Both the position numbers and the translations under genes were made by a program. The notes below the pieces were generated by a model that saw only the letters and a list, made by a program, of their open reading frames with translations, was not told the DNA's origin and did not search any database. A stretch of DNA of 64,000 bases from Harmothoe impar (lineage: Eukaryota; Annelida; Polychaeta; Phyllodocida; Polynoidae), in contig OX381715.1 in the NCBI GenBank assembly GCA_947462335.1, forward strand, positions 45,539,472 through 45,603,471, in the 5' to 3' direction. Below, piece by piece: positions 1-20,939 of this stretch (position 1 is the stretch's first letter; the number at the start of each line of letters is the position of its first letter).

Positions 1-899
1 AATGAAAACTCCAGGGATCTCAGATCCATATATTTTGTTGTCTTGACCTGTGACCCACTTTCACAGTAAGCTCTCACAGTGACTTTGATCACAGGTGTAT
101 CCTTCAATTTCTGTGCATCCACATCTAGACACCAATACCCTGTGCCTGCATCATCCAGGGTCACCTTGCAGAAAAGATCGCCATGGTACCACACATTTTC
201 GATCAAAGCCTTTGCATATAGAACACATGAACTCATCAGGGTTGTTTTGAAGTGAATGCAAGATACTTTCGATGTTGAAAAGTCGATGACTGATAAAGGC
301 TCGATTATTTTTTGACCTTGATGCAGTTCCACAAGCCTGTTGTTGCAAATGGCCTCGTCTACATCATGATGCAAGCCAGTACACGACCTGGAACAAGACC
401 CACATTTCAGAGACTGACAGGTATCAGGATAGCTTGTGTGTTGTCTTCTCTGTGTTAATTCTGTCTTCCAATCTGAAATAAGTGACACCCCATGCTTCAG
501 CACTAAATAGTACTTATTATTCAGGTTTTTCATATTCAGTTGTCCACTTAGCCCATTGTAGGCCATGAAGGGAGTATGTAACTTTTCACACACATAGATG
601 ACATGAGCATTCACCCTTGCATTGTACCTTACCATTGCGTTGCAAGTCCCGTTAGCCGAAATCATTTCCATCGTGACTGCCTTTCTGAGATCCCTTCCGC
701 TGTCAAAATATTTCAGATTCAACCTATAACCAGTATGGAAGAAATCCTCCTTGATTGGAATACCCCTGACAGTTAATTCCAGACACACCAGGTTTAGGTC
801 TTCTATCACTTTAACATCTGTGACTATAGTTTGTTCTTTAGATGCACTGGCGCCCCTTAGAAGGTGCAACAATGCAATGATCAACACAACGAGCATCAT
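1..899 (-). CDS. Secreted cysteine-rich virus-like glycoprotein, copy 1 (partial, runs off left edge)
   Basis: Seen: the minus strand is open from an ATG at 899 (doubled ATG-ATG) to base 1 with no stop, so the 3' end lies outside the window. The first ~20 residues form a hydrophobic signal peptide ending in a G-A-S-A-S stretch. The remainder is rich in Cys, with a dense cluster (C-Q-S-L-K-C-G-S-C-S-R-S-C) near residue 165. It aligns along its whole length with the gene at 998-2002, differing mostly by scattered single-residue changes (about 80% identical by eye), including the signal peptide and the DNA just upstream of the start. Inference: a tandem gene duplication of a secreted or envelope viral protein. 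No transmembrane helix is visible in the part present. The family is not recognised. Confidence 0.7.
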   Translation of the reverse strand, partial: MMLVVLIIALLHLLRGASASKEQTIVTDVKVIEDLNLVCLELTVRGIPIKEDFFHTGYRLNLKYFDSGRDLRKAVTMEMISANGTCNAMVRYNARVNAHVIYVCEKLHTPFMAYNGLSGQLNMKNLNNKYYLVLKHGVSLISDWKTELTQRRQHTSYPDTCQSLKCGSCSRSCTGLHHDVDEAICNNRLVELHQGQKIIEPLSVIDFSTSKVSCIHFKTTLMSSCVLYAKALIENVWYHGDLFCKVTLDDAGTGYWCLDVDAQKLKDTPVIKVTVRAYCESGSQVKTTKYMDLRSLEFS

Positions 900-929
900 G
901 TTTGCTTCTTTGGATTTCCTATGGGTAGA

Positions 930-935
930 TTTATT
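930..935 (-). terminator. Poly(A) signal AATAAA (minus) for the 998-2002 gene
   Basis: TTTATT on the plus strand, 63 bases past the stop of the 998-2002 gene. No other minus-strand AATAAA is seen between here and the minus ORFs at 1999-2217 and 2282-3712, so all three could share this 3' end. Confidence 0.45.
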
Positions 936-997
936 GTTAGTAAATTTTTCGTTGCTGATGCTCTTTGATTCTAAGAAATAGTTGGATATTATCTGGA

Positions 998-2002
998 TCA
1001 TAAACTTAAGATTGTAGAATTCTTTGTGTCACTTGTCCTCTTATTTCTGTTGTGTATTAAATTCGAACAGTACACTTTCGACGAATGGTTACTTAGAACC
1101 CTGTTTTCTGTGGAGAACTCCAAGGATCTCAGATCAATATATCTTGTTGTCTTGACCTGTGACCCACTTTCACAGTCAGCACTCACAGTGACTTTGATCA
1201 CAGGTGTATCCTTCAATTTCTGTGCATCCACATCTAGACACCAATATCCTGTGTCTGCATCATCTAATGTCACCATGCAGAAATCATCACCACGGTACCA
1301 CACATTTTCGATCAAAGCCTTTGGGTGTAGTACACACGATCTCATCAGGGTTGTTTTGAAGTGAATGCAAGATGCTTTTGAAGTTGAAAAGTCAATGACT
1401 GATAAAGGCTCGATCATTGTTTGGTCGTGATGCAATTTTACAACTCTCTCGTTGCAAATGGCCTCGTTCACATCATGGTGCAAGGCCGTACATGACCTGG
1501 AACAAGACCTACATTTCAGAGACTGACAGGTATCAGGATAGCTTGTGTGCTGTCTTCGGTGTATCATTTCAGTCTGGGAAATAAGCGAAAGCCCACGCTT
1601 CAGGAATAAATTATATCTGTTATTCCTATTTTTCATATTCAGTTGTCCACTCAGCCCATAGTAAGCGATGAAGGGACTTTGCAATCCTTCACAAACGTGA
1701 GTTATGTGAGCATCTGTGCTTGCATTGTACTTTACCATTGCATTGCAAGTCCCATTAGCTGAATTCATTTCCATCGTGACTGCCCTTCTGAGATCCCTTC
1801 TGCTGTCAAAATATTTCAGATTCAACCTAAAACTAGTACGGAAGAAATCCTCCTTGATGGGGATACCCCTGATAGTCAATTCCAGACACACCAGGTTTAG
1901 GTCTTCTATCACTTTAATTCTCGTGATGATAGTTTGTTCTTCAGATGCACTTGCACCACCGAGAAGGTACAGGAATGAAACGACTAAGACAATGAGAATC
2001 AT
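998..2002 (-). CDS. Secreted cysteine-rich virus-like glycoprotein, copy 2
   Basis: A 334-residue intact ORF starting at ATG 2002. Residues 1-19 are a clear signal peptide (hydrophobic core, then G-G-A-S-A-S). Potential N-glycosylation sites (N-G-T, N-A-S, N-H-S) occur in the body. A cysteine cluster (C-Q-S-L-K-C-R-S-C-S-R-S-C) lies mid-protein. The C-terminus is basic and polar with no membrane anchor, so the protein is probably secreted or held by disulphides or partners. It is a close paralogue of the gene running off the left edge (899 to 1). Its ATG overlaps the TGA of the 72-codon ORF upstream (ATGA, 1999-2002), an arrangement repeated elsewhere in this block. Its role is unknown; an immune-modulating or attachment function would be a guess from location and family expansion only. 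Confidence 0.75.
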   Translation of the reverse strand: MILIVLVVSFLYLLGGASASEEQTIITRIKVIEDLNLVCLELTIRGIPIKEDFFRTSFRLNLKYFDSRRDLRRAVTMEMNSANGTCNAMVKYNASTDAHITHVCEGLQSPFIAYYGLSGQLNMKNRNNRYNLFLKRGLSLISQTEMIHRRQHTSYPDTCQSLKCRSCSRSCTALHHDVNEAICNERVVKLHHDQTMIEPLSVIDFSTSKASCIHFKTTLMRSCVLHPKALIENVWYRGDDFCMVTLDDADTGYWCLDVDAQKLKDTPVIKVTVSADCESGSQVKTTRYIDLRSLEFSTENRVLSNHSSKVYCSNLIHNRNKRTSDTKNSTILSL

Positions 2003-2217
2003 GTTTGCTTGTGTGGATTTCCTATGACCAGATTTGTTGTTAGTACCTGTTTTGTTTTGCTCTTGTTCAGATCGCTCTTAGATTCTGCAAACAAGGAAAT
2101 AGTCCGTATCCATCCTGTAGTGTAGTATGACAATTCCAAGGGAGAGATCATTGATCTGTGGATTTCATCTTCTGCCTCGTCTCTTTTTCTCTTCGTGAAT
2201 GATGGAGTATAGCTCAT
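1999..2217 (-). CDS. Small hypothetical ORF, 72 aa
   Basis: An ATG-started ORF at 2217 whose TGA overlaps the ATG of the 334-aa glycoprotein gene. The product is polar, with a basic K-R-K-R segment near residue 10 that could be a nuclear localisation signal, and no membrane segment. Its position between two minus-strand viral genes and the ATGA overlap favour a real gene. Its small size and lack of a recognised family argue for caution. It could instead be 5' leader sequence of the downstream gene. Confidence 0.4.
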   Translation of the reverse strand: MSYTPSFTKRKRDEAEDEIHRSMISPLELSYYTTGWIRTISLFAESKSDLNKSKTKQVLTTNLVIGNPHKQT

Positions 2218-2281
2218 TCTATGTGGTGAGATATCAACTTATGTTCCAAGAAAGCTTAATGCATCTCTGTAAAATGCAATC

Positions 2282-3712
2282 TTAATGACCAAATAAAACA
2301 TCTTGAATGCCATATGAATTGTAGCATATACCAGAATCATGCAGGTGTAACAAATATGCCAACAGCATGGACAGGACACTGTCATATGTGCCATGCAATC
2401 TTAGATCACTGGATATGTTCAACCCTAATTGTTCGTTATCATACAAAGCATATATATTTGTTCCGATTAAGTCTATGGGTGAACGTTCTGCTCTTTCCCA
2501 TTTGAGTTGATGTATGGACGAAACTTCTTGTACGTTGAGCCAGGTGTTAAATATGGATGTGAGTATGACACAGTAGGCAAGTCGATCTGTCGATGTGCTC
2601 CAGTCCGAATCAAACAATGATTTCACTTGCATGGCCTGTCTTGACTCAAATATAGTGTCTGGACTTACATCATGAGCTAAATGGAAATGCTTTGCTATGA
2701 TGCTACATCTCAGGAATTTACTTTCTTGCCCAAAGCATGTGCATGGATCAACAATGAGATAGTCAAAGCTTTCTAGTGAAGATCTTATGTCCTGCTTCGT
2801 AGCAACCACTGAACTCAGAGCACTTTTCAACTTGCTCATGCTACTGTCATATGTCACTCTACCAGCCATGTAAGAAGATGGAGAGACTGATCCTTCTGCA
2901 GGGGAAAAGTACAACACTGTTTTCATCCTCCTTAGAAGATACAGCAGTATGATAGACGTATCAGCATAACAGCCCAATGACAAAGCGTATGGTGTATGTA
3001 TTTCATTGATCTCTTGTTGAATCTCATGTTCCTTCTTTAGCAGTTGACAAAGTACATCTCTTGAGTTCTGCACTGCCACTTTTTTCTTCTCGAACCCTAT
3101 AGAAATATCTATAGATGGGGTATAAATCTCTGACATACTTGGTTCTTGTACTTTCTCGTTCACCGTAGATGTCGTATCTATGAGAATAGGCATCATGTAG
3201 TGATGACATGGCTGCCTTGAATGGTTGCCTTCGTTGACGTCTCGAATGAGATCAGATGCTGCCTTGTACTTACATCGATGACAACTATTGTCATGCTTGA
3301 GGCATCCTGAGTGTAATACCTGATGTCTTCCATACTGGATCAAGAATGATATATTTTTTTTCAGTTTAAGAAGAATTTCAACAGAATTAGCTTCAGTCCA
3401 TTCCCGCAATATCTCATTTTCGATGTTATTGTTCATATCATGTATGGTGTTCAATTCAGATGTACATCCCTCTCTTCTCTTCATCAGGGCCAAACAATTG
3501 CAGATGCCGCGCATCAACAGGGAGGCAGACAAGTAGTTTTCCTCTGGACTGAGCTGTAGAAGCTGCTTGTACAATTCACGTTCTATGTCTTGTAAGCTTT
3601 CTGTGGACAGGAAGACATCTTCCGAATGTGCATGGTCTATGTGATACCAGTAATTGAACAAGAATATCTGGTCCTCTAGTTTGAATAGCACATCAAATAT
3701 ATTTGTTTGCAT
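2282..3712 (-). CDS. Virus-like protein of unknown function, 476 aa
   Basis: An intact ORF from ATG 3712, the first gene of a minus-strand run (3712 to 998). No signal peptide or membrane segment is evident. A cysteine/histidine-rich stretch at about residues 136-170 (C-L-K-H-D-N-S-C-H-R-C-K, then P-C-H-H) could bind zinc. The C-terminal half is hydrophobic-helical with a C-x-C (D-P-C-T-C-F) around residue 325. Herpesvirus packaging proteins of the UL28 and UL32 types carry such Cys/His clusters, but length and overall sequence do not let me assign either one. The gene is divergent from the 3912 gene across 199 bases that probably hold both promoters. Treat as unclassified. Confidence 0.65.
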   Translation of the reverse strand: MQTNIFDVLFKLEDQIFLFNYWYHIDHAHSEDVFLSTESLQDIERELYKQLLQLSPEENYLSASLLMRGICNCLALMKRREGCTSELNTIHDMNNNIENEILREWTEANSVEILLKLKKNISFLIQYGRHQVLHSGCLKHDNSCHRCKYKAASDLIRDVNEGNHSRQPCHHYMMPILIDTTSTVNEKVQEPSMSEIYTPSIDISIGFEKKKVAVQNSRDVLCQLLKKEHEIQQEINEIHTPYALSLGCYADTSIILLYLLRRMKTVLYFSPAEGSVSPSSYMAGRVTYDSSMSKLKSALSSVVATKQDIRSSLESFDYLIVDPCTCFGQESKFLRCSIIAKHFHLAHDVSPDTIFESRQAMQVKSLFDSDWSTSTDRLAYCVILTSIFNTWLNVQEVSSIHQLKWERAERSPIDLIGTNIYALYDNEQLGLNISSDLRLHGTYDSVLSMLLAYLLHLHDSGICYNSYGIQDVLFGH

Positions 3713-3730
3713 ATCAACTTTTCATATATT

Positions 3731-3742
3731 GACATGCATGTC
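3731..3742. promoter_or_regulatory. 12-bp perfect palindrome in a divergent promoter region
   Basis: GACATGCATGTC lies 19 bases upstream of the minus-strand ATG at 3712 and 170 bases upstream of the plus-strand ATG at 3912. The 199-base gap must contain both start regions. The palindrome could be a dimeric-factor site, but a 12-mer can arise by chance and no TATA box is clearly placed beside it. Confidence 0.2.
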
Positions 3743-3911
3743 ATGTGCATCAATATGAAATGCCAAGATCATCTGTGTCACTGCTGTATTTCATCTGGTT
3801 ACTTAACTTTGGAATTTTCCTGAAGCTGGTTTTTGACCAAGGTAACATGCAACATACTAATGCCGATAGTTATTATCTGTTCACAGATTCTCATACATAC
3901 TTCGTACAGGA

Positions 3912-4673
3912 ATGGCAGACAAAAAGAGTAATGAGCTCACTGAAATGTCTTCTAACTACGACAAATGTCCGGGAATGCAATTGGAGGAGGTACCTCTCGA
4001 TCCCAAGTCTGAGAAATTTTACCGAAAAAACACCATTCCTTCCTCCACAGTTCCTAGTGGAAAATCATCTACAGTTGCAGAGAATGATACCATTCAGCAC
4101 ACTGAGGTCTTCGTCGGAGATCACGGTGGTGGGTCCTTGATGTTCCTCATCTTTTCATCTGTGGCATTAACAGCAATAAATGTGTTCCTTCTCAGTGTGA
4201 GTGCATCTGTACCACCAAAACAGCATCTACTACCAAATGGAGACAGAATGGTCCCATGTTCGAATGATGTAAAGAATCCTATGTGCTTTGATGTGGTGGA
4301 CTTCCATGGGTTACCTATATACAGAAGCGATGGGAAGAAACGGTTCCTCAATCTGAGACCTTGTTCTAAATCTGCAAGAAACACTGAAGATTTGGAATGC
4401 GCAGGAGAGTTTCTCTTTGCTCACAACTCCAGTGTCTACTGGTTCCAACGCCTATATCGAGACATACGGGACGACACATATAGTCTGGTTGGTGGTGCAA
4501 CATCTGAGGTTGGAGAGATGGAAGGGTCTATGAGAGTACGCCATATGCTCACTCCACCATTCAACTGGATACTTGGTTATGAAGATGTCCCTCCGAATGA
4601 ACACCCTGATGCTTCATTGTATGTCCGTGGTACAATACATACAGAGCACTGTGTCAGTGGAAATGAGAATTGA
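3912..4673 (+). CDS. Type II membrane protein, 253 aa
   Basis: An intact ORF from ATG 3912. Residues 1-74 are polar and Ser/Thr/Pro-rich with no signal peptide, residues 75-99 form one strong hydrophobic segment, and residues 100-253 form a cysteine-containing domain with an N-S-S glycosylation sequon near residue 170. This order predicts a type II topology with the C-terminal domain outside or in the lumen. It is first in a plus-strand run (3912, 4734, 5573, 6178) that appears to share the AATAAA at 7856. Its presence among capsid-type genes suggests a virion envelope or nuclear-egress membrane protein, but no family is recognised. Confidence 0.7.
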   Translation: MADKKSNELTEMSSNYDKCPGMQLEEVPLDPKSEKFYRKNTIPSSTVPSGKSSTVAENDTIQHTEVFVGDHGGGSLMFLIFSSVALTAINVFLLSVSASVPPKQHLLPNGDRMVPCSNDVKNPMCFDVVDFHGLPIYRSDGKKRFLNLRPCSKSARNTEDLECAGEFLFAHNSSVYWFQRLYRDIRDDTYSLVGGATSEVGEMEGSMRVRHMLTPPFNWILGYEDVPPNEHPDASLYVRGTIHTEHCVSGNEN

Positions 4674-4733
4674 ATTTACAGAAAGAAGTAGCAGTGCAGG
4701 GACCACATCATAATGTAGCACAAAGAGCGAAGA

Positions 4734-5576
4734 ATGTTTGAAACACAATATACAATAAAAGCAAATGCTTGGATTTCCACGTTAACTCACAAACTCAGAT
4801 CCAAGTCAGATGTGTTGGATGTACTATCGAGAAGACCAAATGTGTTGTCCCATACCGCATCCTCTGTACGGTTGGGATTTCTTGTTTTGAAAACTAGACA
4901 CGCATTGGATGTGGAAATCACAGATTTATTTGACAAACAAGGATACAAGACTTTGTTCTACGATGAGGAAGGTACCCTGGACCTCTTCGTGAAGACAAAT
5001 TATTTGAGTGTGAATGAATTATACAAAGATGTGAAAGCAGTGTATGAGTGCCAGCTTCAGATGAAATCCTTGACAGATGCAATATTGTCATTGCATCAGC
5101 ATCTTCTCGATACATGTGTACTACACGAATATATACTGATGAATATCGCTATGTTACCCGTCCATCCAACTATAACTCAATGTATCTGTCAATTTGGTTC
5201 TTTTCTCTCGAGACTGAAGAAGAAAAGTCCATTGATTGATACGCTTTACAAACCTGTCGATGTCAGTAACGAAAAAGAATGGAAAGTCGTTGTACATTTT
5301 CGCTCGCTGTGTGGACTGCATTGGGTGAAGAAGCCTCCCAAGTCTGATCATGTTGAAGTTCACCATGGTACTTGCTCTTGGACTTTCACATGGCATTCTG
5401 TTGCAACAAGATATGGAAACACTTATTTCTATGAACGGTTAGATGAAAGACTACAATGGGTTGCCATTTGGTTTGCTTATGCACGTAGATATCCCTCCAT
5501 CATACGGGCCTCTCCAAAGGTTTTCCCGGTAGCATTAGCATTACTGACGAATGAGAAACGCAAACAAGAAACATGA
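4734..5576 (+). CDS. Virus-like protein of unknown function, 280 aa
   Basis: An intact ORF from ATG 4734. The product is mostly globular without a signal peptide or membrane helix, mixed alpha/beta by appearance, with a His/Trp/Cys-rich patch around residues 205-235. The stop TGA overlaps the ATG of the next gene (ATGA at 5573-5576), implying coupled translation or nested transcripts. As an upstream neighbour of the protease-scaffold gene it may be a capsid, packaging or tegument component. I see no motif that decides this. Confidence 0.65.
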   Translation: MFETQYTIKANAWISTLTHKLRSKSDVLDVLSRRPNVLSHTASSVRLGFLVLKTRHALDVEITDLFDKQGYKTLFYDEEGTLDLFVKTNYLSVNELYKDVKAVYECQLQMKSLTDAILSLHQHLLDTCVLHEYILMNIAMLPVHPTITQCICQFGSFLSRLKKKSPLIDTLYKPVDVSNEKEWKVVVHFRSLCGLHWVKKPPKSDHVEVHHGTCSWTFTWHSVATRYGNTYFYERLDERLQWVAIWFAYARRYPSIIRASPKVFPVALALLTNEKRKQET

Positions 5577-6178
5577 AGAGAAAGCGTGCACATGACGGGG
5601 ACGATGACATGCATGAGACATCTAAGAGAATTAAATTGGACTCGATCTTCATCAGCACATCAGAAGTGAGCCTCGTGAACTTATATATTCTACACAAGTT
5701 CTTGGGCCCCTTTTGTTTGATGGTGGAGGAGAAGAGAGCAGTATGTGAAAGAGATTGTTCACTTTGTAACAGTAAGACTGGCATGACTTCGGAATATCCA
5801 GTCGATGTAATGCAGACAATAAAAGAGACAGGTGTGGACAGTTACATTGTTGATGCCCTTGTCCGTGATTTATACCACAGAGGTGGCATAGAGCATGTTC
5901 ATACAGGAACAGGAGACAACTGTGCTACGTTTACCTTCTCAGACATCAAACATGTTCCTTGGTTTGCCTCGCATATCATGCTGTTTCGCTGTCAGAGTGT
6001 GAAAGTTGATCTCGATCTTTGTGAGTCGAGCTTGGTTCTGCAATGGAGTGATTCAAAGGGAAAGGAAGAAATTCACCAACTCAGACCATTTGTGAAAAAT
6101 ATAATGGATTCCATACAGAAAATCTGGTTACGAAAAAATCTTGATAAGTTTCTTTCTTGTCCATTGACGAACGAATAA
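5573..6178 (+). CDS. Virus-like protein with basic N-terminus, 201 aa
   Basis: An intact ORF from ATG 5573, which overlaps the preceding stop. The N-terminal 25 residues hold two basic clusters (K-R-K-R and K-R-I-K) flanking an Asp-rich stretch, a likely bipartite nuclear localisation signal. A C-E-R-D-C-S-L-C-N motif near residue 60 gives a short C-x3-C-x2-C cluster that could bind metal. No membrane segment. The stop TAA (6176-6178) overlaps the ATG of the protease-scaffold gene by one base (TAATG). A nuclear role in assembly or packaging is inferred from the basic signal and neighbours only. Confidence 0.65.
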   Translation: MKRKRAHDGDDDMHETSKRIKLDSIFISTSEVSLVNLYILHKFLGPFCLMVEEKRAVCERDCSLCNSKTGMTSEYPVDVMQTIKETGVDSYIVDALVRDLYHRGGIEHVHTGTGDNCATFTFSDIKHVPWFASHIMLFRCQSVKVDLDLCESSLVLQWSDSKGKEEIHQLRPFVKNIMDSIQKIWLRKNLDKFLSCPLTNE

Positions 6179-7836
6179 TGAAAATGATGACAATGTCTGA
6201 ACTTCTTTGCCTCGTTTGCTCTCATGAGAATATACACCAACCCACGGCAAATTTTCTTGAGAATATCATACAAAATGATGAAGTCTATTGGATGGGCTAT
6301 TTGCTTTGTGACCCAAAGTCAACCATGAACAGTGACAGTCCATATGATATACATCTGAATGATGCATGTAATATCAAGTTGACTGGTGTACCAGTGAAAT
6401 ATAACCACAACAAGAATGCAATGTCACTTGGCAAGGTAGTAGCTGCATGGCATGATCACGACTTCAATGAAATCAATGGGCATGAATTTGCAGTTGCATT
6501 TCTTGCACACATAGACAATCAGTCCTTCTTGAAGTCGTCAGTCAACCTGATGATGCTGTCAGAAACATCTGCTAGCCTTTCAACATTAAAAAGAGATATG
6601 TCAGTGGCTGTTGAAATATCGCTCTGCTATTGTGGTGCCAGAAATGGTTGTGTCGGTATGTTCCTGAGAGGTGTGCGTGTTGCAGAAAAGGCATCAAACT
6701 TTGGGTTTCCTGAGTATAAACGTATCGAAGCAAGTTCTCTTCTATATGACCAAAGCATGGCTGAAGAAGAAACAGCAGAGAATGGATTCCAAGAATCTAT
6801 GGCTGGCCTACCAGAGAAGGAGTTTCAGGCCATAAAGGAAACGTTGACTGAGACTCAGACCTCGCTCGATACTGTGTGCAAACAATATGAAGCTTCTCAG
6901 GAAGCCCTAGATCTCATGGCAAAGTGGATGACTGACATGATAAGCACCAGGTTGTCGTTAGAAAATCAGAGCGGCAGTGAAATAGCCCAGAAGAGAAGGA
7001 GTGATCTCGAGATGTTAAGGAAAAGAGGCATAATACATGGCGGAAAAACTGATGTTGAAGCACTAAGAGAACTAATGACTTTGTGCCATGAGTGCTATTC
7101 GAACGACACTGAATCAAAGAAAATGGCTGATGAAGTACTAAGAAGGTTTGATGCACAGTTCCCAGAACTGGAGGGTAAGGTGAAGAGATCAGAACTGATG
7201 GAAACTGTAGATGCAGCATTTGATATATTGCGCCATGAAATGCAGAGAAAGGAAGCCTCAGCGTTAGACAACAGGAATCAGAAGCTCAACAAAAGAGCAA
7301 TGGAACTCGCAAAGTCTCAATATGATAATATCAAAAGGCAAAGTGTGACTATTAACAATGGATCTACTCAGTGTGTAGACGACATGAGTTTTGCAGCATA
7401 CATGAATGAAAGAGGTCTCGACACAAGCACGCTCAGTGCCCAACAAACTGTTGATGGCAGTAATCAGTCTACGTGTGAGCCAACAAGCAAGAAAAGGAAG
7501 TTGGATGAATCATCTCTTGAATCTAAGATTCCTATGAAATGGCAAGATGACTTCTTGAAGTTCGCCTCGGAGCGTACAAAAAAGCAGGAGGATGAAAGGA
7601 GGAAGTACAACCAGCTACAGGAGGAGTATTTATTGCAGAGGGAAAAAAAGAAAGAAGAGAAGGAGAAAAACTTTGTCGAACTAAACCAGAACATAAGAGA
7701 CTTGCTCCACTACATGAAAAACCAAGGCAGTGAAGTGAAAACAGAAAAGAGCACAGCACCTAAGGAAGAAACATCACAAACAGTAGATGCATCATTGAAT
7801 GGTATTGTCAGGAAACCTCCCTTGTTCGATCTATAA
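6178..7836 (+). CDS. Herpesvirus assemblin-like maturation protease fused to scaffold
   Basis: The start is taken at ATG 6178, which overlaps the upstream stop (TAATG); the frame is open 21 bases further upstream but has only a TTG there. Residues 1-~170 match the assemblin (peptidase S21) layout: a P-V-K-Y-N-H segment with candidate catalytic His77 followed by a G-K-V-V-A-A strand, an S-A-S-L-S-T segment with candidate nucleophile Ser133 or Ser135, then E-I-S-L-C-Y-C-G-A-R-N-G, matching the family's H-x-S-L-C...G-R-R-x-G block. Oddly, the position usually held by the third triad His is Glu146. Residues ~190-552 are highly charged and helical with a K-K-R-K nuclear signal (~445) and a coiled-coil E/K/Q-rich tail, as expected for the internal capsid scaffold that the protease removes. 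The downstream neighbours fit a capsid module. Confidence 0.72.
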   Translation: MKMMTMSELLCLVCSHENIHQPTANFLENIIQNDEVYWMGYLLCDPKSTMNSDSPYDIHLNDACNIKLTGVPVKYNHNKNAMSLGKVVAAWHDHDFNEINGHEFAVAFLAHIDNQSFLKSSVNLMMLSETSASLSTLKRDMSVAVEISLCYCGARNGCVGMFLRGVRVAEKASNFGFPEYKRIEASSLLYDQSMAEEETAENGFQESMAGLPEKEFQAIKETLTETQTSLDTVCKQYEASQEALDLMAKWMTDMISTRLSLENQSGSEIAQKRRSDLEMLRKRGIIHGGKTDVEALRELMTLCHECYSNDTESKKMADEVLRRFDAQFPELEGKVKRSELMETVDAAFDILRHEMQRKEASALDNRNQKLNKRAMELAKSQYDNIKRQSVTINNGSTQCVDDMSFAAYMNERGLDTSTLSAQQTVDGSNQSTCEPTSKKRKLDESSLESKIPMKWQDDFLKFASERTKKQEDERRKYNQLQEEYLLQREKKKEEKEKNFVELNQNIRDLLHYMKNQGSEVKTEKSTAPKEETSQTVDASLNGIVRKPPLFDL

Positions 7837-7855
7837 TACTAGCGTGTGTTCATCC

Positions 7856-7861
7856 AATAAA
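7856..7861 (+). terminator. Poly(A) signal AATAAA after the protease-scaffold gene
   Basis: Twenty bases past the stop at 7836 and 19 before the next ATG. It is the first plus-strand AATAAA at an ORF end in the 3912-7836 run, so transcripts of the four ORFs may be 3'-coterminal. Confidence 0.5.
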
Positions 7862-7879
7862 GTACAAAATTGAAAAGAA

Positions 7880-8854: not shown

Positions 8855-8855
8855 A

Positions 8856-8861
8856 AATAAA
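8856..8861 (+). terminator. Poly(A) signal AATAAA after the 324-aa gene
   Basis: Begins two bases past the stop codon ending at 8854, with the next ATG at 8916. Confidence 0.5.
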
Positions 8862-8915
8862 ACAGAGAAAAAAACATATTATTACCCATGCTGAGATATA
8901 CTCATATGTAAAACC

Positions 8916-12398: not shown

Positions 12399-12410
12399 AT
12401 TCATTTCATG

Positions 12411-12416
12411 TTTATT
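12411..12416 (-). terminator. Poly(A) signal AATAAA (minus) for the nuclease-like gene
   Basis: TTTATT on the plus strand lies immediately downstream of the minus-strand stop at 12417, in the 18-base gap between two convergent genes. Confidence 0.5.
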
Positions 12417-13319
12417 TCAAAATCCAGGCATCCAACCACAGAATATATCATCATCATAGTCCTCGCTCCTCAATTCCAGGGAATAGGGTGTATTGTTTCG
12501 ATGTTCACATATGACCAAGAGTCCATGACTTCCTCTCGAACCATAAGTTTTCTCATACATCTTCATTGTACAAACAACTTGAGCAATGTATCTGCCTAAT
12601 AAACATTTCATGAAACCAGTGATCTTGTCTTTCTTGCACCTCTTGTATTGTGTGTAGAGATCTTGAAAACTTGAAGACGTGATCTTTATTTCTATCAAAA
12701 CCAATCTTCTGTTTTCATGATCAAACCCGACCAGATCAATCTCTGTTCCTGACACTGACTCCTGACCAGTCGTCTGGTTCCAATTACTAACTAATACAGC
12801 AGATGACACGAGTGTGATGTCCATCTCATGTAAATGATGTATGATATTCTTTGAATCTTCCTGAGCAAGATCATCAAATGAAGTTGCACCCAAAGCAAAA
12901 TCCTTCAGTTCTTTGTCGACAGCAATGCCCACTCTCAGACAGTTGTGACAGTATCGTTTGTGCCTAGTTCTAAATCTTCTTGAGCGATACCGTCGCTCAG
13001 AAAGGTGTTTAGCTAGCATGCGTGTAATTCCTGCTATTCTATTCCCTTGTACAAACCATTTCTTGCCTCTCGATTCTATTTCATATAATGGCCTGGGTAA
13101 TCCTTTGTCTATTGTGGTAGCTCCGACGACCATGTCATGAATAGGCTTCACAGGGGAGGTTTCAATCCCACTGAGGATGTCCTTCCATTTTTGAAAACTC
13201 TCTGGGGTAACTGACAAAACAGATACTCTATCTCCTTTGGACAGATAGGGACTTGTAAACTCAATGGTGTCATCCCCTATTTCATAAGACTTCCAGATAT
13301 TCATGACGTCATCTTTCAT
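12417..13319 (-). CDS. PD-(D/E)XK nuclease-like protein, 300 aa
   Basis: An intact ORF from ATG 13319, on the opposite strand to its neighbours. Residues 191-212 show the PD-(D/E)XK pattern: G-T-E-I-D with Asp195, a short loop, then a hydrophobic strand ending L-I-E-I-K with Glu210 and Lys212. A following helix has Q247 and Y255, like the Q-x(n)-Y helix of RecB-type nucleases. A Cys/His pair set (Y-C-H-N-C, residues 123-127) and a strongly basic R-x-R-R stretch (109-122) may bind DNA. Herpesviruses encode an alkaline exonuclease with this fold for genome processing, so a replication, recombination or packaging role fits, but a different viral nuclease is possible. Convergent with the 1160-aa gene and divergent (48-base gap) from the membrane-protein gene. 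Confidence 0.65.
   Translation of the reverse strand: MKDDVMNIWKSYEIGDDTIEFTSPYLSKGDRVSVLSVTPESFQKWKDILSGIETSPVKPIHDMVVGATTIDKGLPRPLYEIESRGKKWFVQGNRIAGITRMLAKHLSERRYRSRRFRTRHKRYCHNCLRVGIAVDKELKDFALGATSFDDLAQEDSKNIIHHLHEMDITLVSSAVLVSNWNQTTGQESVSGTEIDLVGFDHENRRLVLIEIKITSSSFQDLYTQYKRCKKDKITGFMKCLLGRYIAQVVCTMKMYEKTYGSRGSHGLLVICEHRNNTPYSLELRSEDYDDDIFCGWMPGF
12598..12603 (+). terminator. Possible poly(A) signal for the 1160-aa gene
   Basis: The first plus-strand AATAAA after the stop at 12398. It lies inside the antisense nuclease gene, so use would give overlapping convergent transcripts. Confidence 0.3.
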
Positions 13320-13367
13320 TTCGTTCTATATTCATTAATGAAAGCCACAGCATAAACAATAAGAGTG

Positions 13368-14765
13368 ATGAAGGCGTACATACCTAAGTCTTACAGGGGC
13401 TATTCCAGCATCCAAGAATCAGAAGGACTGAACAAATTTCGAGGAGCAAAAAAGTTTATTGGAAGTGTAGGAAATGCCATTGAACATACAGGTGATGTAG
13501 TCATCAAGCAGTGTGATGCCATAGACCGTGATCTAACTTCCACTTGGAAGTATTGGCAGTTCAGGATGGGAAGAATCTTCCCTCCGAACTTTGTTCTCCA
13601 TGTGAACAGCATCATTTCACTTGTGCTTAATGTGATGCAAGTCCTTCTGATAATTGAATTCATCCGAAAAACTAATGGCAATTTCGATGATGTGAACACC
13701 TTCGTCATCATGCTCCCTACATACATCCAACTCTCTGTCAAGTTGCTGGTTCAACTGGCTGCCCTTGTGATGGTAATGGAAAATGTTCTGCAGAAGGAAA
13801 GGAAACACACCATATTCGTTATATATGAAGAACTCCACAGTTGCCTTCCAGTTTTCGAGCATGTAGTTCCTGTGATTACGTATATCATGTTTCTCTTGTG
13901 TGCCATATCCATTGGAGGTTGCCATTTAAACTGGGGGGAAAGGGCAGAAAACACTACATTTTGCAAGAACATGAATCTATCTGCAGTAGAGGGAATAATT
14001 TGCACGGCCATGGCAGGTCACATGATCCATCACATCCTGGCCATATATAACCACTACAGACACACGGCCCCCCTGCAAAAGAAATGGTGCTTAGATGAAG
14101 ACAATTCAATAGAAATGAACCATCTGAAGCCTAGAAATATGATGACCGAGTTAGAATCCATTTCCACGGAATTGAGCCAGTCCATGGACTGGTGGAAGTT
14201 CAGAATGAGCAGAATATTTTCAGCCAACTTAACAAATAATATTTTCAAGGCTGTGGACAATTTACTAGAGGGAACACAGATCATCCTGCTTGTGAGAGCT
14301 TTCCATGATGCAAAGGGAAATCTTAACAGTGTCCCCAACTGGTCTGAAGTGCTACTGCCTCTTCAAATTTGCTTCTTCTTGAAAATGTCAGTCGTTCTGG
14401 TCATGCTCATATGGGTATCTTACAGAACATGCCAGCGAGAGTCGAAAATGAAAATGCTTCGATTGCTATCCGAACCAAAAGGATGGATCCAAATAGCTGA
14501 ACACATCCTACCCTTTGTAGTCTTCTTGATGTTTGGGCTGACTTCCTCACTTGCTGGACGTTGCATGGTGAATGCAGATCAACATGCGATATGTAAATTA
14601 TTTTCCTGGTCCGCCGTCGAGTCTGTTATAATGCTTGCTGCTATAGTGATGTTCCTGTATCACATCAAAGCCATACACAATGTGCATATGCATGGTTCAA
14701 AATGGGAAACCAAAAAGGAAAAGTATAAGATTGACTTAAATGATACTGCATCCAGTGTCAACTGA
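13368..14765 (+). CDS. Multi-pass membrane protein with internal duplication, 465 aa
   Basis: The ATG at 13368 is taken as start (the frame is open one codon further with only a GTG). Two halves repeat the same plan. Residues ~60-235 and ~272-450 each begin with a W-x-F-R-M-x-R-I-F motif, then a hydrophobic segment, a polar loop with an asparagine-rich stretch, two more hydrophobic segments, a Cys-containing loop (G-G-C and G-R-C), an S-A-V-E motif and a last membrane segment followed by H-I-x-A-I-x-N. This predicts about eight membrane spans from a tandem duplication of a four-span unit. N- and C-termini are hydrophilic. No transporter or receptor family is recognised. An envelope or host-membrane remodelling role is plausible but unproven. 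Confidence 0.7.
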   Translation: MKAYIPKSYRGYSSIQESEGLNKFRGAKKFIGSVGNAIEHTGDVVIKQCDAIDRDLTSTWKYWQFRMGRIFPPNFVLHVNSIISLVLNVMQVLLIIEFIRKTNGNFDDVNTFVIMLPTYIQLSVKLLVQLAALVMVMENVLQKERKHTIFVIYEELHSCLPVFEHVVPVITYIMFLLCAISIGGCHLNWGERAENTTFCKNMNLSAVEGIICTAMAGHMIHHILAIYNHYRHTAPLQKKWCLDEDNSIEMNHLKPRNMMTELESISTELSQSMDWWKFRMSRIFSANLTNNIFKAVDNLLEGTQIILLVRAFHDAKGNLNSVPNWSEVLLPLQICFFLKMSVVLVMLIWVSYRTCQRESKMKMLRLLSEPKGWIQIAEHILPFVVFLMFGLTSSLAGRCMVNADQHAICKLFSWSAVESVIMLAAIVMFLYHIKAIHNVHMHGSKWETKKEKYKIDLNDTASSVN

Positions 14766-14781
14766 AATGTATTGATGATGA

Positions 14782-14787
14782 AATAAA
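14782..14787 (+). terminator. Poly(A) signal AATAAA after the membrane-protein gene
   Basis: Seventeen bases past the stop at 14765 and 27 before the next ATG at 14814. Confidence 0.5.
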
Positions 14788-14813
14788 ATGTATCAGAAAA
14801 ATTAATTGTCACC

Positions 14814-17800
14814 ATGAGTCTTAGTGAGACTAGAGCTAAGAGAGAAAAGTTCTATAGGAATGACAGCAGAGTCAAGAGCACTTTCTCTGAAATATATATC
14901 TCCATACCAAATGGACCGATAGGAATAAAAAAAGATGGATGTGGTGGTTCATTTTGTGTTGCTAAGAACATGAGAGAGCTTTCTGAACTTTGTGTTCAAG
15001 CAGTACAAGCTGCGCGTAAGATGGAAAGAGATGGACTCGTTGTACATGAAGATGAGGTGACACAGTCACTCATGGTAGACATAAAAACCAAAGGTCTTGC
15101 CCTCCACCTGCTGCCATACTTGACGTTCTCTGTGATATCACACATAGAGCCGGACAGTAAAACTTGGAATGCCAAGAAGAGTTTGTTGCAAATGATAATA
15201 GGTGTCTTACACCAGTGTACCAAAGACATGCTCATGTTCAATATATTCACAGAAAAAGACATGCCCTCCCCTCTGAAAAATGAGCACCTACCAGATCCTC
15301 TGTTTCAGACAAAGGACCATTCGAATTGGAATAGATACTTACAGATCGCTGAAGATGAAAAAGCAAATGACTTGAGAGCAGGACTGTATGTTATATCACC
15401 AGCTTCCTGCGAGAGGAAGATTCATCTGCTTCTCGCTGAACTTAGACAGTATGGGCAGGTGTGTCTGAATGGATATGATAACTGGCTCGAGGCCAACGCA
15501 TTGGTAAGGCTCAGAACGGCAGCCAAACTATTTGACTATCCCTACACTATAGAAAAGGGCAGTGTTCCAAACTCATTCTTTTCTCTACCGAAAGACTTCT
15601 GCCATACTATAAACAAGCACATAGAAGCTGGCAGAGGGAGGCGGTCTTTGAGTGGTGTCATGATGTTTCTGAAAGAAAAGTACCTGCCAGGTGAAAGTTC
15701 CAACACTTCCATAGAAAAATTGAGCAGGATGTTGCTTTGTGTATCACGGAAGAATGATGAGAACACATGCATCAAAGGTGACGTACCATGGATTTTTGCA
15801 TATAACAGTGATCCAAAAGATTGTTCACATGCACTTCCTGCGGTTGCTCTCGATTTCAAGGAATGCAACATTGCCAAGTATTTCTGGAGAAATTTAGATG
15901 ATTTTTTCAGGCATTTCGGATCTGATCTCAGAGACTCTCACTTTGCAAAACGCTCCATCATTGGGTTTCCTTATCAATGTGGCTTCAGGAATCCCGAGAA
16001 AGCAAATGAAATGTGTCCATGGCGCTTCCGTTCTATGTGGGAGCAGACCAACCATGCACGTGAATTTCACAGTCTGAGCTCAAACGAAATGAACATAGTG
16101 AGAGAATTCACCAACAAAAGGGGAGAAGAAACACAGGTGCAAAATGAGTATGTATGGTTAGAAAAACATGAGGCATTAAATGTATTCGACAGAGACCGAC
16201 TTAGACAACGCCACGATCTGGGCAAGATGTTGGCTGACTTTATGCCGATCCATTTCAAGAACTGGCAAATCATCACTGAGCTCCAGAGGTTGACAACTAA
16301 CTTTGAGAAGTGCATGGAAGCCTATGACGGTAGTGAGGAGGAACAGAGTAAAAACTGTCACATTGTTGCCCTGTGTAAGGAACATCTGACCTTCCTGAAG
16401 AAGGGCATGCTTCAAGCTGAGGACATGGTAAACTATGTACATGGATGGCTTTCTGCTTTGAAGTTGCAAGCATCTGTTCTGACAGAAATGAATGACATGA
16501 ACGAACGAATACAAAATTCCCAGGCCACTGCAAGGAGAGTAGCTAATGTGTTCACAGACGATCTGAACAGAGAATTACAGAGAGCTGGTAATCTTAACTT
16601 TGGTGCAGTCAGACCCGGATCTCTTGTGCAAAGTATCCCGGCAGATAGCTCTGCAGAGGGCTGCAGTTCGACCATTGCACTTGCAGTGATCTCCTCGTTG
16701 ACGTCACACGATGAAACGGCTGCTGAGCACAATGTCAACATATACAGGAAAGCCATGGAAGACAATGGGTTTGATACACCATCATTGAGGAAACGCAAGG
16801 CACCTGACGACATGTCACAACACACTGACATGGAAATTTACAAAAAGATCAAGAGCTGTGATGGGAAAAAACCACAGTGCTCTCTGATGGACTTGATGCA
16901 AACTACGCCAACTTTGCCTGTCACATCAAAGTCAAAAAATGGATGTCAGCTGCAGCTGGTTCAGCCTATCAGTATGCAAGTAAGCTTGGCTGACTATCGA
17001 GAGCTCAGCATATATCTGTTAGGAGTCCTTGATAGGATGGATTTCAGGAGACAGACATTCATTCTTGCTGCAGCACAACTATTCGCCAACACAGCCAATG
17101 CCATGTATTTTTTCACAGACAGTGGTTACGAACTTGTCAAAAATGTTTTCCACCTGCTTCTGAACGATGTGTATGATGTATACCACAGAGATCCACCTCT
17201 CCTGAAAAGGAAATGTTGGGTGTTGTTCTGTAAACTGATTCATTACATCAACAAAAATGCCAGTGGAAGGTTAAAGTTTTTGTTCAAAGTGAGATTGGCA
17301 AGGCATGGTGACAGGTCTATGTCTCCGGTGAAATTCATCGAACCTACTGCAGTGATGGTCTATGGAGAGAAATCTACTGATGCTCATGTCATGGTTCGTG
17401 CTATTCGGGATGTGCCAGAAACAGAGCTCAAACTGACAGTATTAGATTCCAACTGCATCGACACTGCTGATTTCGAGTGTAAAAATATAAGACTGATACA
17501 AGAAGTGAACAAGTATTACAACATCATGGCATGCAAATGGAAGGGTGAGGAGAACATCAATGACTCCCAAGTGAATAACTTCAGGAAGATCCATTGTCCC
17601 ATATGTCAGGAACAGTTTTCCAACAGGCCTATCGAAGGATTCAATTGTCCATATAGAGATGCAGAAAGACAGTTCCTAGAAGAGCAAGGGTTGCCTCCCG
17701 AAGACATAAAGAAATGCGATCTATATACCGACTTTGTATCAAAGAGAATTCAACAGGCAAGCTCAAATTTTAGTACAGAACATAGTAGTGGCATGCACCT

Positions 17801-18338
17801 ATTCCACAAGGACTGCATTAGGCGCTGGATTCAATTGAGGGCAATAGATGTCAACGCAGAAGACATTAAATGTCCTTCCTGTAACACAATAATATACAAT
17901 AGAACAGAAAAGGATGTCATCCTTTGTAACATACATGATGTTGCTTGCAGGTTGTTGATTGGACTGAGTGACAACAGTTCCTGCTTACAGACAGATGAGA
18001 TAATCAATGTAAAAGAGCAGAAAGCTCTGTGGAGTGCAGATCGTATATTGCGAGATTTCGGTCCATTGAATGAAACATCATGTCTTTCTAAATGTAACTC
18101 GGATGTGAACATGGAGCAACTGGCAAATGAGAAGTACCCAACTGAATATATGGATTTCCTTCAGAGGTACATGGATACTACTACCCCAAACTGCAACGCT
18201 GATATTGCCAACAAAGATGACAGCCCCTTGTCCATATTTGATAAGTTCATGACACAGCCCCAATCATTGTGTAAGGCAGAACTTGTATCAAATACCACTC
18301 ACAGACTAAATCATGGTTGTATTGCTGAAGAGTTTTAG
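14814..18338 (+). CDS. Large virus-like protein with C-terminal RING-H2-like domain, 1174 aa
   Basis: The longest ORF in the window, from ATG 14814 in a good Kozak context (ACCATGA). The first ~920 residues match nothing I recognise. They include a helical stretch (~490-600), a basic patch R-K-R-K near residue 660 and a hydrophobic helical region (~720-800). Residues ~926-1023 form a RING-like zinc domain: C-P-I-C at the start, an unusually long insert with a further Cys, then H-L-F-H-K-D-C-I-R-R-W and a closing C-P-S-C. The H-x2-x-D-C-x4-W block is typical of RING-H2 E3 ubiquitin ligases. Invertebrate herpesviruses are known to carry several RING proteins. A ubiquitin-ligase activity is inferred from the motif, and the role of the large N-terminus is unknown. 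Confidence 0.68.
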   Translation: MSLSETRAKREKFYRNDSRVKSTFSEIYISIPNGPIGIKKDGCGGSFCVAKNMRELSELCVQAVQAARKMERDGLVVHEDEVTQSLMVDIKTKGLALHLLPYLTFSVISHIEPDSKTWNAKKSLLQMIIGVLHQCTKDMLMFNIFTEKDMPSPLKNEHLPDPLFQTKDHSNWNRYLQIAEDEKANDLRAGLYVISPASCERKIHLLLAELRQYGQVCLNGYDNWLEANALVRLRTAAKLFDYPYTIEKGSVPNSFFSLPKDFCHTINKHIEAGRGRRSLSGVMMFLKEKYLPGESSNTSIEKLSRMLLCVSRKNDENTCIKGDVPWIFAYNSDPKDCSHALPAVALDFKECNIAKYFWRNLDDFFRHFGSDLRDSHFAKRSIIGFPYQCGFRNPEKANEMCPWRFRSMWEQTNHAREFHSLSSNEMNIVREFTNKRGEETQVQNEYVWLEKHEALNVFDRDRLRQRHDLGKMLADFMPIHFKNWQIITELQRLTTNFEKCMEAYDGSEEEQSKNCHIVALCKEHLTFLKKGMLQAEDMVNYVHGWLSALKLQASVLTEMNDMNERIQNSQATARRVANVFTDDLNRELQRAGNLNFGAVRPGSLVQSIPADSSAEGCSSTIALAVISSLTSHDETAAEHNVNIYRKAMEDNGFDTPSLRKRKAPDDMSQHTDMEIYKKIKSCDGKKPQCSLMDLMQTTPTLPVTSKSKNGCQLQLVQPISMQVSLADYRELSIYLLGVLDRMDFRRQTFILAAAQLFANTANAMYFFTDSGYELVKNVFHLLLNDVYDVYHRDPPLLKRKCWVLFCKLIHYINKNASGRLKFLFKVRLARHGDRSMSPVKFIEPTAVMVYGEKSTDAHVMVRAIRDVPETELKLTVLDSNCIDTADFECKNIRLIQEVNKYYNIMACKWKGEENINDSQVNNFRKIHCPICQEQFSNRPIEGFNCPYRDAERQFLEEQGLPPEDIKKCDLYTDFVSKRIQQASSNFSTEHSSGMHLFHKDCIRRWIQLRAIDVNAEDIKCPSCNTIIYNRTEKDVILCNIHDVACRLLIGLSDNSSCLQTDEIINVKEQKALWSADRILRDFGPLNETSCLSKCNSDVNMEQLANEKYPTEYMDFLQRYMDTTTPNCNADIANKDDSPLSIFDKFMTQPQSLCKAELVSNTTHRLNHGCIAEEF

Positions 18339-18341
18339 TGA

Positions 18342-18347
18342 AATAAA
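18342..18347 (+). terminator. Poly(A) signal AATAAA after the RING gene
   Basis: Four bases past the stop at 18338, within AAATAAATAAATAAG just before the next ATG at 18358. Confidence 0.5.
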
Positions 18348-18357
18348 TAAATAAGAA

Positions 18358-18999
18358 ATGAACCCATTTGTATATGTTGTTCGACCACTGTTCACATTGA
18401 TGAATCCAGCATTCTGGTACACTTTTATTGGCCTGTATGTGATGTCAGTCCTGACTTTTGGTATATGTTTTGCCATTCAAAATGTGGCTGGGCAAGTTGC
18501 TAGCCTTCTTGACAAAGTGATTCATTTTTTTTCCCACACAGAATATGCTAAGCTCAAAGCAGTTGCTAGCCTGACTAATGGAACATGCGATGAATTCAAA
18601 CACCTGGGTGTACTTATAAGGTACTTTATTGCAAAGATGTTTGGGAATCCGTTATGCAACGAGGTGGTATGGTATGAATCAATTACTCTCACCAGGATTT
18701 TCATATCCTATCCCTTTAGACTTGTTTATCCCTCCTTTGGTACCCAGGCAGCAGGATCTGATTGGCTTCATCAGAAATGCTCTCTCAATTTTCAGACGGA
18801 CTTGTGTGCTGGAGTAGTGGGAGGGCAAACGTTCTCAAGATTCATCTATACTGAGGGTGTCTGGATGTACGTGATCATCAGTTTGCTCAAACCTGTGATA
18901 AGTGATATCTTGAAAGCTTTAGTCCATGCAATCAGGAAATCAGTACGTGTAATTCATGCTTTCATTCACAACCACTTCATGCTGAAGGCATCACACTGA
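18358..18999 (+). CDS. Membrane protein of unknown function, 213 aa
   Basis: An intact ORF from ATG 18358. Hydrophobic segments at residues ~18-42 and ~165-188 predict two membrane spans with a ~120-residue loop containing six cysteines and an N-G-T sequon. The C-terminus is basic and His-rich. The stop overlaps the 3' end of a convergent minus-strand gene by nine bases (18,991-18,999). It is the last complete virus-like gene before the boundary. No family recognised. Confidence 0.62.
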   Translation: MNPFVYVVRPLFTLMNPAFWYTFIGLYVMSVLTFGICFAIQNVAGQVASLLDKVIHFFSHTEYAKLKAVASLTNGTCDEFKHLGVLIRYFIAKMFGNPLCNEVVWYESITLTRIFISYPFRLVYPSFGTQAAGSDWLHQKCSLNFQTDLCAGVVGGQTFSRFIYTEGVWMYVIISLLKPVISDILKALVHAIRKSVRVIHAFIHNHFMLKASH

Positions 19000-19554
19000 T
19001 GATCCTGGAGTATCTGACACATGGATGAGACTTGTGACTATGTATACCAAGAGGGCAGCCACGATGACAGAGGAAACAATAAACAACATCTTATATGCTA
19101 TATATCGTGTTTCATCAGGGTTTGCTTTCGATAGAAGTTTTACAGAAGCCATGGGTCCCATGAATCTGTCAGTGTGCAAAGTCAGAGGAATTCGGCTGCC
19201 ATCCAGTAGGAAGGACCTGACGTTCACACTGTCGTCTAACGCTACATCTCCAGACAGCATGTCAAGGAATATACTGTTGTTGTGAAGCATGGTCAATGAA
19301 ACATTTGTGAGTGTCCCTTCTGCTTCAGAGTTCATTCCTATGTAGATAAGCATGGAATCGGCTGCTTTCACTGATTGCACATCATGGACCCTGATGTTCT
19401 TTATCACAGAGGAGCTGGAGAGGAGGACTATAGCTGCAGAGAGATATGATGGGAGGGTAGAAAACCGTTCACTCGCTTGCAGTATACAACCGCTGTTATC
19501 AATGTCAATATTATGAATGGACACATCATTCGGGTCTAGAACAATGCATAATTC
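18991..19554 (-). pseudogene. C-terminal fragment of a virus-like type I glycoprotein, cut at the virus/host boundary
   Basis: The minus frame is open from 19,554 to the stop at 18,991 but has no ATG near its 5' end. The first codon that could start artificially is a GTG at 19,524, and the first in-frame ATG is about 58 codons later, inside a repetitive beta-strand region. The product reads as the end of a longer protein: an ectodomain with short repeating strands and N-x-S/T sequons, one membrane span near the C-terminus and a short cytoplasmic tail. Upstream sequence changes abruptly to AT-rich DNA with short direct repeats and stops. Interpretation: the 5' part was lost at the junction, so the junction lies near 19,535-19,555. 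Confidence 0.6.
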
Positions 19555-19626
19555 TTAATTACTATGCATAGATCAATTTTGTATAAAGATTGATAGTTAA
19601 GATGCATAATTCTTAATTGTTATGAA
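19544..19626. repeat. Short direct repeat at the virus/host boundary
   Basis: ATGCATAATTCTTAATT occurs at ~19,544 and again at ~19,602 in AT-rich DNA with no coding signal, right where the truncated glycoprotein frame ends. It may be local duplication linked to the junction or ordinary AT-rich repeat. Confidence 0.4.
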
Positions 19627-19817
19627 GTAATAAAAAGAAAAACTAACCTGTTAGTTTTTTTCAGGAAGCGATACAACGCCTGTTGCTTTATAGTATAATA
19701 TGCTTTAGTATACTAATGCACACTGCTTTGCCTCACACTATTCGATTCTGTATGTGAAAAATTAACATAAAATAAATTTCATTTATATGCATAGTAGCCT
19801 CAAATATTAGTCACTTA

Positions 19818-19940
19818 AACTATGATATGGACAACTCACTTGAAGCTTCATCTGGACAATTGAATAAAACTACTATATATTAAACTGTGATATGGACAAC
19901 TCAGTTGAAGCTTCAGCTGGATAATTGAATAAAAGTACTA
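19818..19940. repeat. Two-copy direct repeat (~65-bp spacing)
   Basis: Two diverged copies of a segment containing A-T-G-G-A-C-A-A-C-T-C-A, then T-T-G-A-A-G-C-T-T-C and C-T-G-G, then A-A-T-T-G-A-A-T-A-A-A-A, at ~19,818-19,873 and ~19,884-19,940. The rest of 19,560-19,980 is AT-rich with no gene visible. Confidence 0.5.
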
Positions 19941-19981
19941 AGTTCAGTTACATATGATACCAGTGTCATAACAAAACTCAC

Positions 19982-20540: not shown

Positions 20541-20567
20541 CACCCAAAGTTGGGGTTCGTGTCTCCC

Positions 20568-20893: not shown

Positions 20894-20939
20894 GTCACAG
20901 GCTCGGTCAGCATAACAAGGGCAGGGGTAAACCGAATTT

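Follow-up and report, generated by a model that had tools for sequence, protein, structure and literature searches.

Evidence for a high-copy endogenous herpesvirus-like genome in the chromosomes of the polychaete Harmothoe impar

Herpesviruses are said, with few exceptions, to persist as episomes (PMC5822658), and the clearest case of a high-copy chromosomal herpesvirus in the literature surveyed, as far as its summarized accounts go, is the teleost Teratorn group. Teratorn of medaka is described as a piggyBac-herpesvirus fusion of 180 kilobases (kb), with subtype 1 present in 30–40 copies, ends of the CCYT type, and TTAA duplications (PMC10175614), and Teratorn-like viruses are given as reported from teleosts only (PMC5822658). 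In amphioxus, the malacoherpesvirus-like proviruses BelcheriHV-1, BelcheriHV-2, and AaHV-1 are described as stretches of about 150 kb with herpesvirus-like genes that adjoin chromosomal DNA of an animal, with AaHV-1 mostly intronless (PMC12373286, PMC2994540). Acipenserid herpesvirus 3 of lake sturgeon, an alloherpesvirus with a 184-kb genome, is described as integrated at several sites and is said to be under purifying selection (PMC12031113). Here we analyzed a stretch of 64,000 nucleotides from the polychaete Harmothoe impar, referred to as the window, which corresponds to C13:45539472–45603471 of an assembly of 1,511,831,793 bases in 736 contigs (labels C1, C2, and so on refer to contigs of that assembly). 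An initial annotation had recognized a large block of herpesvirus-like genes joined to host DNA at positions 1–19554. Our results indicated that this block very probably belongs to a single copy of an endogenous herpesvirus-like genome that measures about 180–220 kb and is present in high copy number, and the best reading is that the element was amplified recently and was functional until recently. Since some 40 near-identical copies exist, the block being one of them, the finding is no longer an integration relic but a mobile provirus of high copy number.

A search of the H. impar assembly with the 1160-amino acid (aa) capsid candidate encoded in the block gave 44 candidate places, 40 of which were scored, and the counts given here cover the scored matches. 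Thirty-eight of these capsid copies, the window's own included, were full length, 99–100% identical, and free of stop codons. The two shortened copies, on C8 and C64, were cut at residue 988 with a TAG codon in one case and at residue 699 in the other. The copies were located on contigs C1–C8, C10–C15, and C19 and on small contigs. There were no more-distant copies among the scored matches, which suggests a single recent burst. Two same-strand capsid genes (C48:82033 and C48:206314) lay on a single 220-kb contig at a distance of 124,281 bases, perhaps as a tandem of shortened copies or through an assembly effect.

The junction at the right side of the block was found to be private to the window copy. 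When window positions 19300–20000 were used as the query, 38 other places matched, every one of them stopping at query base 247 (window 19546), and all 38 read on beyond this position into one common viral continuation; therefore, the junction is a break of the window copy alone. This copy is broken at 19546 by its own event (a truncation, insertion, or rearrangement), which interrupts a membrane-protein gene at 18991–19546. Position 19546 was rejected as the virus end, because the other copies continue with viral sequence there. The abrupt joint to host DNA noted by the initial annotation was thus real for this copy, but its position is 19546 rather than 19554 and it does not mark a viral terminus. 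The flank at 19544–20000 matched solely C1:116717534–116717990 on the minus strand with 100% identity, plus a short adjoining match of 91%, and the C1 copy of the flank did not have this viral sequence beside it. A unit about 50 bases long can be seen, by eye, to recur at the break. On the other side, the predicted continuation of the block beyond the left edge was borne out by matching viral sequence in the DNA left of the window.

The extent of the unit was examined in other copies. Sampling of the C4 and C2 copies in 10-kb steps gave matches of 99.6–100% at 10 kb right and at 10–40 kb left of the capsid gene, a match of 99.5% at 100 kb left, and tandem repeats with 99.2% identity at 20 kb right. 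Most of the left sample windows, out to approximately 100 kb, were coding-dense and TpG-rich. The right end consisted of a 77-bp tandem array, to which several copies added 387 bases ending in an A-rich run and GC (...AAAAAAAAAGC). The DNA past this terminus differed among the copies on C2, C5, C12, and C10, and the first bases beyond it in the four copies were GGTG, TGGT, CACT, and TTTC. A genome search with a 434-base query from the right end gave 132 candidates, 40 of which were scored; 35 of the 39 non-self scored matches ended within query bases 384–392, 21 of them exactly at 387, and four ended earlier. A terminus on the correct strand was located 59.9–88.1 kb (median 74.1 kb) from 34 of the 40 capsid copies. 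The copies on C4 and C14 had 249-bp repeats after the array and a terminus further out, the copy at C6:59733448 ended short of the terminus, and the C7 copy sampled had no array in the stretch fetched. Six termini, including a second one on C5, had no capsid gene in register. The termini at C3:64390982–64502386, C4:9823999–9877337, and C4:61739307, for which no scored capsid gene was in register and two of which lie near satellite-like repeat units, may represent copies that were deleted or rearranged.

To the left of the capsid gene, a satellite-like unit formed an inverted pair, on the opposite strand at 79–101 kb in 21 cases and on the same strand at 100–121 kb in 12 cases, with one C22 unit counted for two capsid genes; the search with this unit gave 1036 candidates, 40 of which were scored. 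Such an arrangement is reminiscent of herpesvirus genomes with their unique-plus-inverted-repeat plan. The distance from the right terminus to the second inverted repeat was approximately 180 kb. In one case, on C5, outward-facing termini were 218 kb apart (1349590 and 1567899), and the second of the C5 termini may be the true left end of an element with terminal inverted repeats. The unit size, measured leftward from the right terminus, was accordingly estimated at about 180–220 kb, and the genome range given for herpesviruses is 124–295 kb (PMC5822658). A left end of the C2 copy at about 95253627 was dropped, because the break falls in a repeat that other copies continue.

In being a giant herpesvirus-derived element of this size with tens of copies per genome, the polychaete element is like Teratorn, whose genes are described as intact in medaka (PMC5822658, PMC10175614). 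The closeness of both size and copy number to those of Teratorn subtype 1, together with the alloherpesvirus-like protease and triplex families described below, would fit a Teratorn-like fusion, in which a herpesvirus genome is moved by an internal piggyBac-type transposase. For Teratorn, however, the descriptions give a piggyBac transposase, terminal inverted repeats that are short, and duplication of a TTAA target, whereas there was no TTAA at the four right ends here, and the Pfam search found neither an integrase nor a transposase domain among 39 distinct open frames sampled outside the window. We therefore consider such a fusion unlikely. The element may work in a manner analogous to Teratorn, as an analogue rather than an established member of that group. 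Acipenserid herpesvirus 3 is reported to have telomere-like terminal repeats (PMC12031113), whereas the H. impar element has the 77-bp array and the 387-bp end, and there were no telomere-like repeats in roughly 90 bases past the four right ends. The amphioxus proviruses, which are likened here by description, differ from the present element with its 40 scored capsid copies. A published counterpart with this copy number in a non-teleost was not found in titles and abstracts, in a search lacking most subscription literature.

In the assembly, the viral DNA was continuous with the host chromosome, with four different flanks at one precise terminus on chromosome-scale contigs. An abundant free virus or episome might have been joined to many contigs as an assembly artefact, and the location of many copies on small contigs (77 kb to 1.3 Mb) is in keeping with this, as is the constant joint, which the ends of a linear virus would likewise produce. 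But copies were also present within contigs of 69–124 Mb, where the flanks differed and the joints examined contained no N. The copies also differed mutually and in their truncations (the window at 19546, C6:59733448 short of the terminus, and C8 and C64 in the capsid gene), so that an artefact is very unlikely.

The affiliation of the element was analyzed through open reading frame (ORF) calling and a Pfam search with curated cut-offs, in which matches were listed to E = 1. The 552-aa protein matched PF25720 (Herpes_ORF28) with E = 7.8e-12 and 45.4 bits (cut-off 40), and the same family was matched with E up to 0.01 by all eight members of the protease alignment, consisting of the window protein and seven relatives. 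This indicated an assemblin-type maturation protease with a scaffold tail, as in Herpesvirales. Residues His77, Ser133, Ser135, and Glu146 were invariant in the eight proteases. In known assemblins, the third catalytic histidine precedes a V-A-L-C-like motif; a glutamate stands at that place in all eight proteases here, hinting at a Ser-His-Glu triad. The neighboring 324-aa protein alone matched PF25743 below the cut-off (E = 0.0023, 17.8 bits, cut-off 27), and 20 of the 29 members of the triplex alignment (the window and 28 of 29 relatives, P0063 being left out) matched it with E up to 0.01 and a best value of 1.4e-9. A herpesvirus-type capsid triplex protein was thus recognized through the members of the alignment. 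Homologues of triplex 2 and of the maturation protease stand side by side, like alloherpesvirus ORF27 and ORF28 (PF25743 and PF25720).

The 1160-aa protein had 28 relatives with 44–93% identity, 26 of them of 1127–1199 aa and two shorter (P0027 and P0028), which were left out of the 27-member alignment. The window protein matched no Pfam family, the alignment members gave scattered unrelated matches (best E = 0.004), and a PDB sequence search found nothing significant (best E = 0.42); further PDB sequence searches likewise found nothing significant. Twelve identical longest-contig sizes were common to the 28 capsid relatives and the 29 triplex relatives, suggesting that linkage of this gene pair is kept elsewhere. 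From its size, neighbors, and linkage, the protein is a candidate for the major capsid protein. The capsid relative P0004 (64% identical) and the triplex relative P0038 (56%) had the same longest contig of 1,339,243 bases, probably representing a related element integrated in another genome. Scans of a viral-contig collection with the capsid, protease, and triplex queries, and of a genome-contig collection with the protease and with the capsid alignment, gave no relative. The arrangement of protease, triplex, and capsid candidate in one cluster differs from that reported for the alloherpesvirus SalHV-1, in which triplex 2 is ORF23, the protease ORF24, and the capsid protein, further away by ORF number, ORF38 (PMC13030845).

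Elsewhere in the element, a 214-aa piece located approximately 30 kb left of the C2 capsid gene matched the terminase C-terminal domain PF02499 with E = 7.2e-5 and 22.4 bits, just below the cut-off of 22.8. A protein kinase (PF00069, 3.1e-10) was encoded approximately 6 kb left of the window, and other copies contained ankyrin-repeat proteins (PF12796, 2.7e-26), paired BTB/BACK proteins, and a RING protein. The protease-scaffold, the capsid-type module, and the herpesvirus-like character proposed by the initial annotation were upheld by these results, the last through the protease and triplex families and the near-threshold terminase piece. Its assignment to the invertebrate type was not, since both sequence matches were to alloherpesvirus families of fish and amphibians, in a comparison that did not include malacoherpesvirus sequences. 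It is highly improbable that the element belongs to another member of Duplodnaviria sharing the capsid type, such as a mirusvirus. The capsid candidate, which has no herpesvirus family match by sequence, would allow such a placement, but the protease and triplex proteins match alloherpesvirus-named families, one of them above the cut-off, and mirusviruses are described from unicellular eukaryotes (PMC12768974).

To examine selection, we compared 29 of the 38 full-length capsid genes, consisting of the window copy, the 8 loci that scored best, and 20 more; the two truncated copies were excluded. Pairwise differences were 0–28 of 3480 bases with a median of 11, there were no stops, and three pairs were identical although they were on different contigs. 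Variants present in at least two copies were 25 synonymous and 2 nonsynonymous (dN/dS about 0.03, P = 2e-12 versus neutral), and singleton variants were 20 synonymous and 15 nonsynonymous (dN/dS about 0.29, P = 2e-4). Because the shared variants were mostly synonymous, the lineage that made the copies retained a working capsid gene under purifying selection, and the singletons suggested that individual copies may already be relaxing. When the 8 best-scoring loci were left out (window and 20 copies), the ratios of synonymous to nonsynonymous variants were 11:2 for shared variants and 23:15 for singletons (P about 3e-5 and 2e-5 versus neutral). An earlier result of 28 synonymous to 0 nonsynonymous was set aside because its eight loci were the best-scoring proteins. 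Passive amplification of one integration, in which host chromosomes were segmentally duplicated and viral function played no part, is most improbable in view of this purifying selection in shared variants and of the different flanks past the shared terminus in four copies, even though duplications do occur, as the virus-free C1 duplicate of the window flank shows, and C48 carries its two same-strand copies.

The nucleotide composition indicated a longer history. CpG in the viral block was 0.44 of expectation, with TpG at 1.47 and CpA at 1.37, and the corresponding values in the flank were 0.52, 1.23, and 1.17. The depletion was deepest across codon positions 2–3 (0.38) and 3–1 (0.43), which are often-silent sites. 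Since the copies differ by only about 0.3%, the CpG depletion is older than the present insertions. The simplest inference would be that the viral lineage was long resident in methylated DNA, other causes of viral CpG loss being possible.

Several points weigh against a recently functional, high-copy herpesvirus-like element. The copy number was derived from the assembly alone. Several sampled offsets between the C2 and C4 copies gave no match or repeat matches only, perhaps from insertions and repeats that shifted the register. The capsid candidate had no sequence match to any known capsid family in Pfam or the PDB, and was identified from sequence context. The terminase-like 214-aa piece had no PDB relative, and a genome-wide PF02499 search was silent here and equally in its 14 controls, so that its silence carries no weight. 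In the selection analysis, the neutral expectation used a transition weight chosen by the analyst, 8 of the 29 copies ranked highest as protein matches and were hence biased to few changes, and the contrast between shared and singleton variants was not significant without these loci (Fisher P = 0.17).

The features of the window are listed in the table. In agreement with the dense, intronless, both-strand coding first described, 96.0% of window 1–19554 was covered by 14 intronless ORFs on both strands, with intergenic gaps of -9 to 279 bases. The compact polyadenylation-type signals were likewise present, AATAAA-type sequences being located 1–20 bases past the stop codons of five genes (7836, 8854, 14765, and 18338, and 12417 on the minus strand). 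The PD-(D/E)XK nuclease-like and large RING proteins, which had also been named, did have the corresponding matches, all of which were weak and below the cut-offs. The tandem pair at the left edge had 234 of 299 aligned residues identical (78% at the protein level) and 85% DNA identity over the aligned part, and on this similarity it is a duplication within the viral genome. PHROGs and NCBIfam searches gave nothing useful.

Table. Features of the window, with the basis of each assignment
Feature	Coordinates	Strand	Basis
Probable part of one proviral copy; extends leftward beyond the window, right side cut by copy-specific break	1–19546		
Secreted/membrane-type protein, tandem pair copy 1, runs off left edge	3–1001	-	ORF; type by reading only
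Secreted/membrane-type protein, tandem pair copy 2	998–2002	-	ORF; no Pfam family above cut-off
476-aa protein	2282–3712	-	ORF; no Pfam match to E = 1
253-aa protein with hydrophobic stretch	3912–4673	+	ORF; no Pfam match to E = 1; membrane role by reading only
280-aa protein	4734–5576	+	ORF; no Pfam match to E = 1
201-aa protein, 4-base overlap with left neighbor	5573–6178	+	ORF; no Pfam match to E = 1
Capsid maturation protease fused to scaffold-like tail, 552 aa	6178–7836	+	PF25720 above cut-off
Capsid triplex subunit 2 (alloherpesvirus ORF27 family), 324 aa	7880–8854	+	PF25743, weak alone, stronger in alignment
Major capsid protein candidate, 1160 aa	8916–12398	+	28 relatives; adjoins protease and triplex
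PD-(D/E)XK nuclease-like protein	12417–13319	-	PF14281 E = 0.015, below cut-off
465-aa multi-pass membrane-type protein	13368–14765	+	ORF; no Pfam match to E = 1; type by reading
1174-aa protein, RING-like zinc finger near residues 928–1030	14814–18338	+	All RING matches below cut-off (PF00097 E = 0.0067, 16.7 bits versus 21)
213-aa membrane-type protein	18358–18999	+	ORF; type by reading
Membrane-anchored protein gene, 3' part, cut by break; frame continues to stop near 19554	18991–19546	-	
Copy-specific junction of proviral and flanking DNA	19546–19547		38/38 other places continue as virus
Flanking genomic DNA	19547–64000		Beyond 20000 judged from ORF lists and composition only

In the flank, about 2.7 copies of a 130-bp unit with a tRNA-Arg(TCG)-like sequence were present at 20555–20901 on the minus strand, with a decayed copy near 20220 by eye; this is either a tandem tRNA cluster or a tRNA-derived repeat, about 1 kb from the junction. 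At the gathering threshold, Rfam found only a tRNA, in the flank. A possible host exon was seen by eye on the minus strand at about 19960–20100, flanked by the splice-like sequences CTACAG and CAG/GTGAGT. An open frame of 273 aa without introns at 29467–30288 had a weak TsaE match (E = 0.0008, below the cut-off).

In the mechanism that we propose for the element, the lineage would replicate as a capsid-forming, terminase-packaged virus, the terminase match being near-threshold only. Its linear genome with fixed ends would enter germ-line chromosomes at its termini, and the integrated copies would then be silent and probably methylated. New copies would arise from rounds that need a working capsid, by reinfection or packaging-dependent spread, rather than from the copying of dead DNA. 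We tentatively suggest, at slightly less than an even chance, that this is a separate herpesvirus-like lineage with a normal life cycle that is chromosomal, germ-line, and multi-copy, which enters at defined ends without piggyBac, lost its CpG through long methylated persistence, and renews its copies through functional capsids.

The H. impar element would be a second case of a high-copy chromosomal herpesvirus, without TTAA at the ends seen, with some 40 near-identical copies and with selection on its capsid gene, and would provide a natural experiment on a 200-kb virus becoming a mobile element. Infectious and intracellular spread would become distinguishable by a test on copy sequences alone, and the element would open a capsid lineage missed by the sequence profiles used here.

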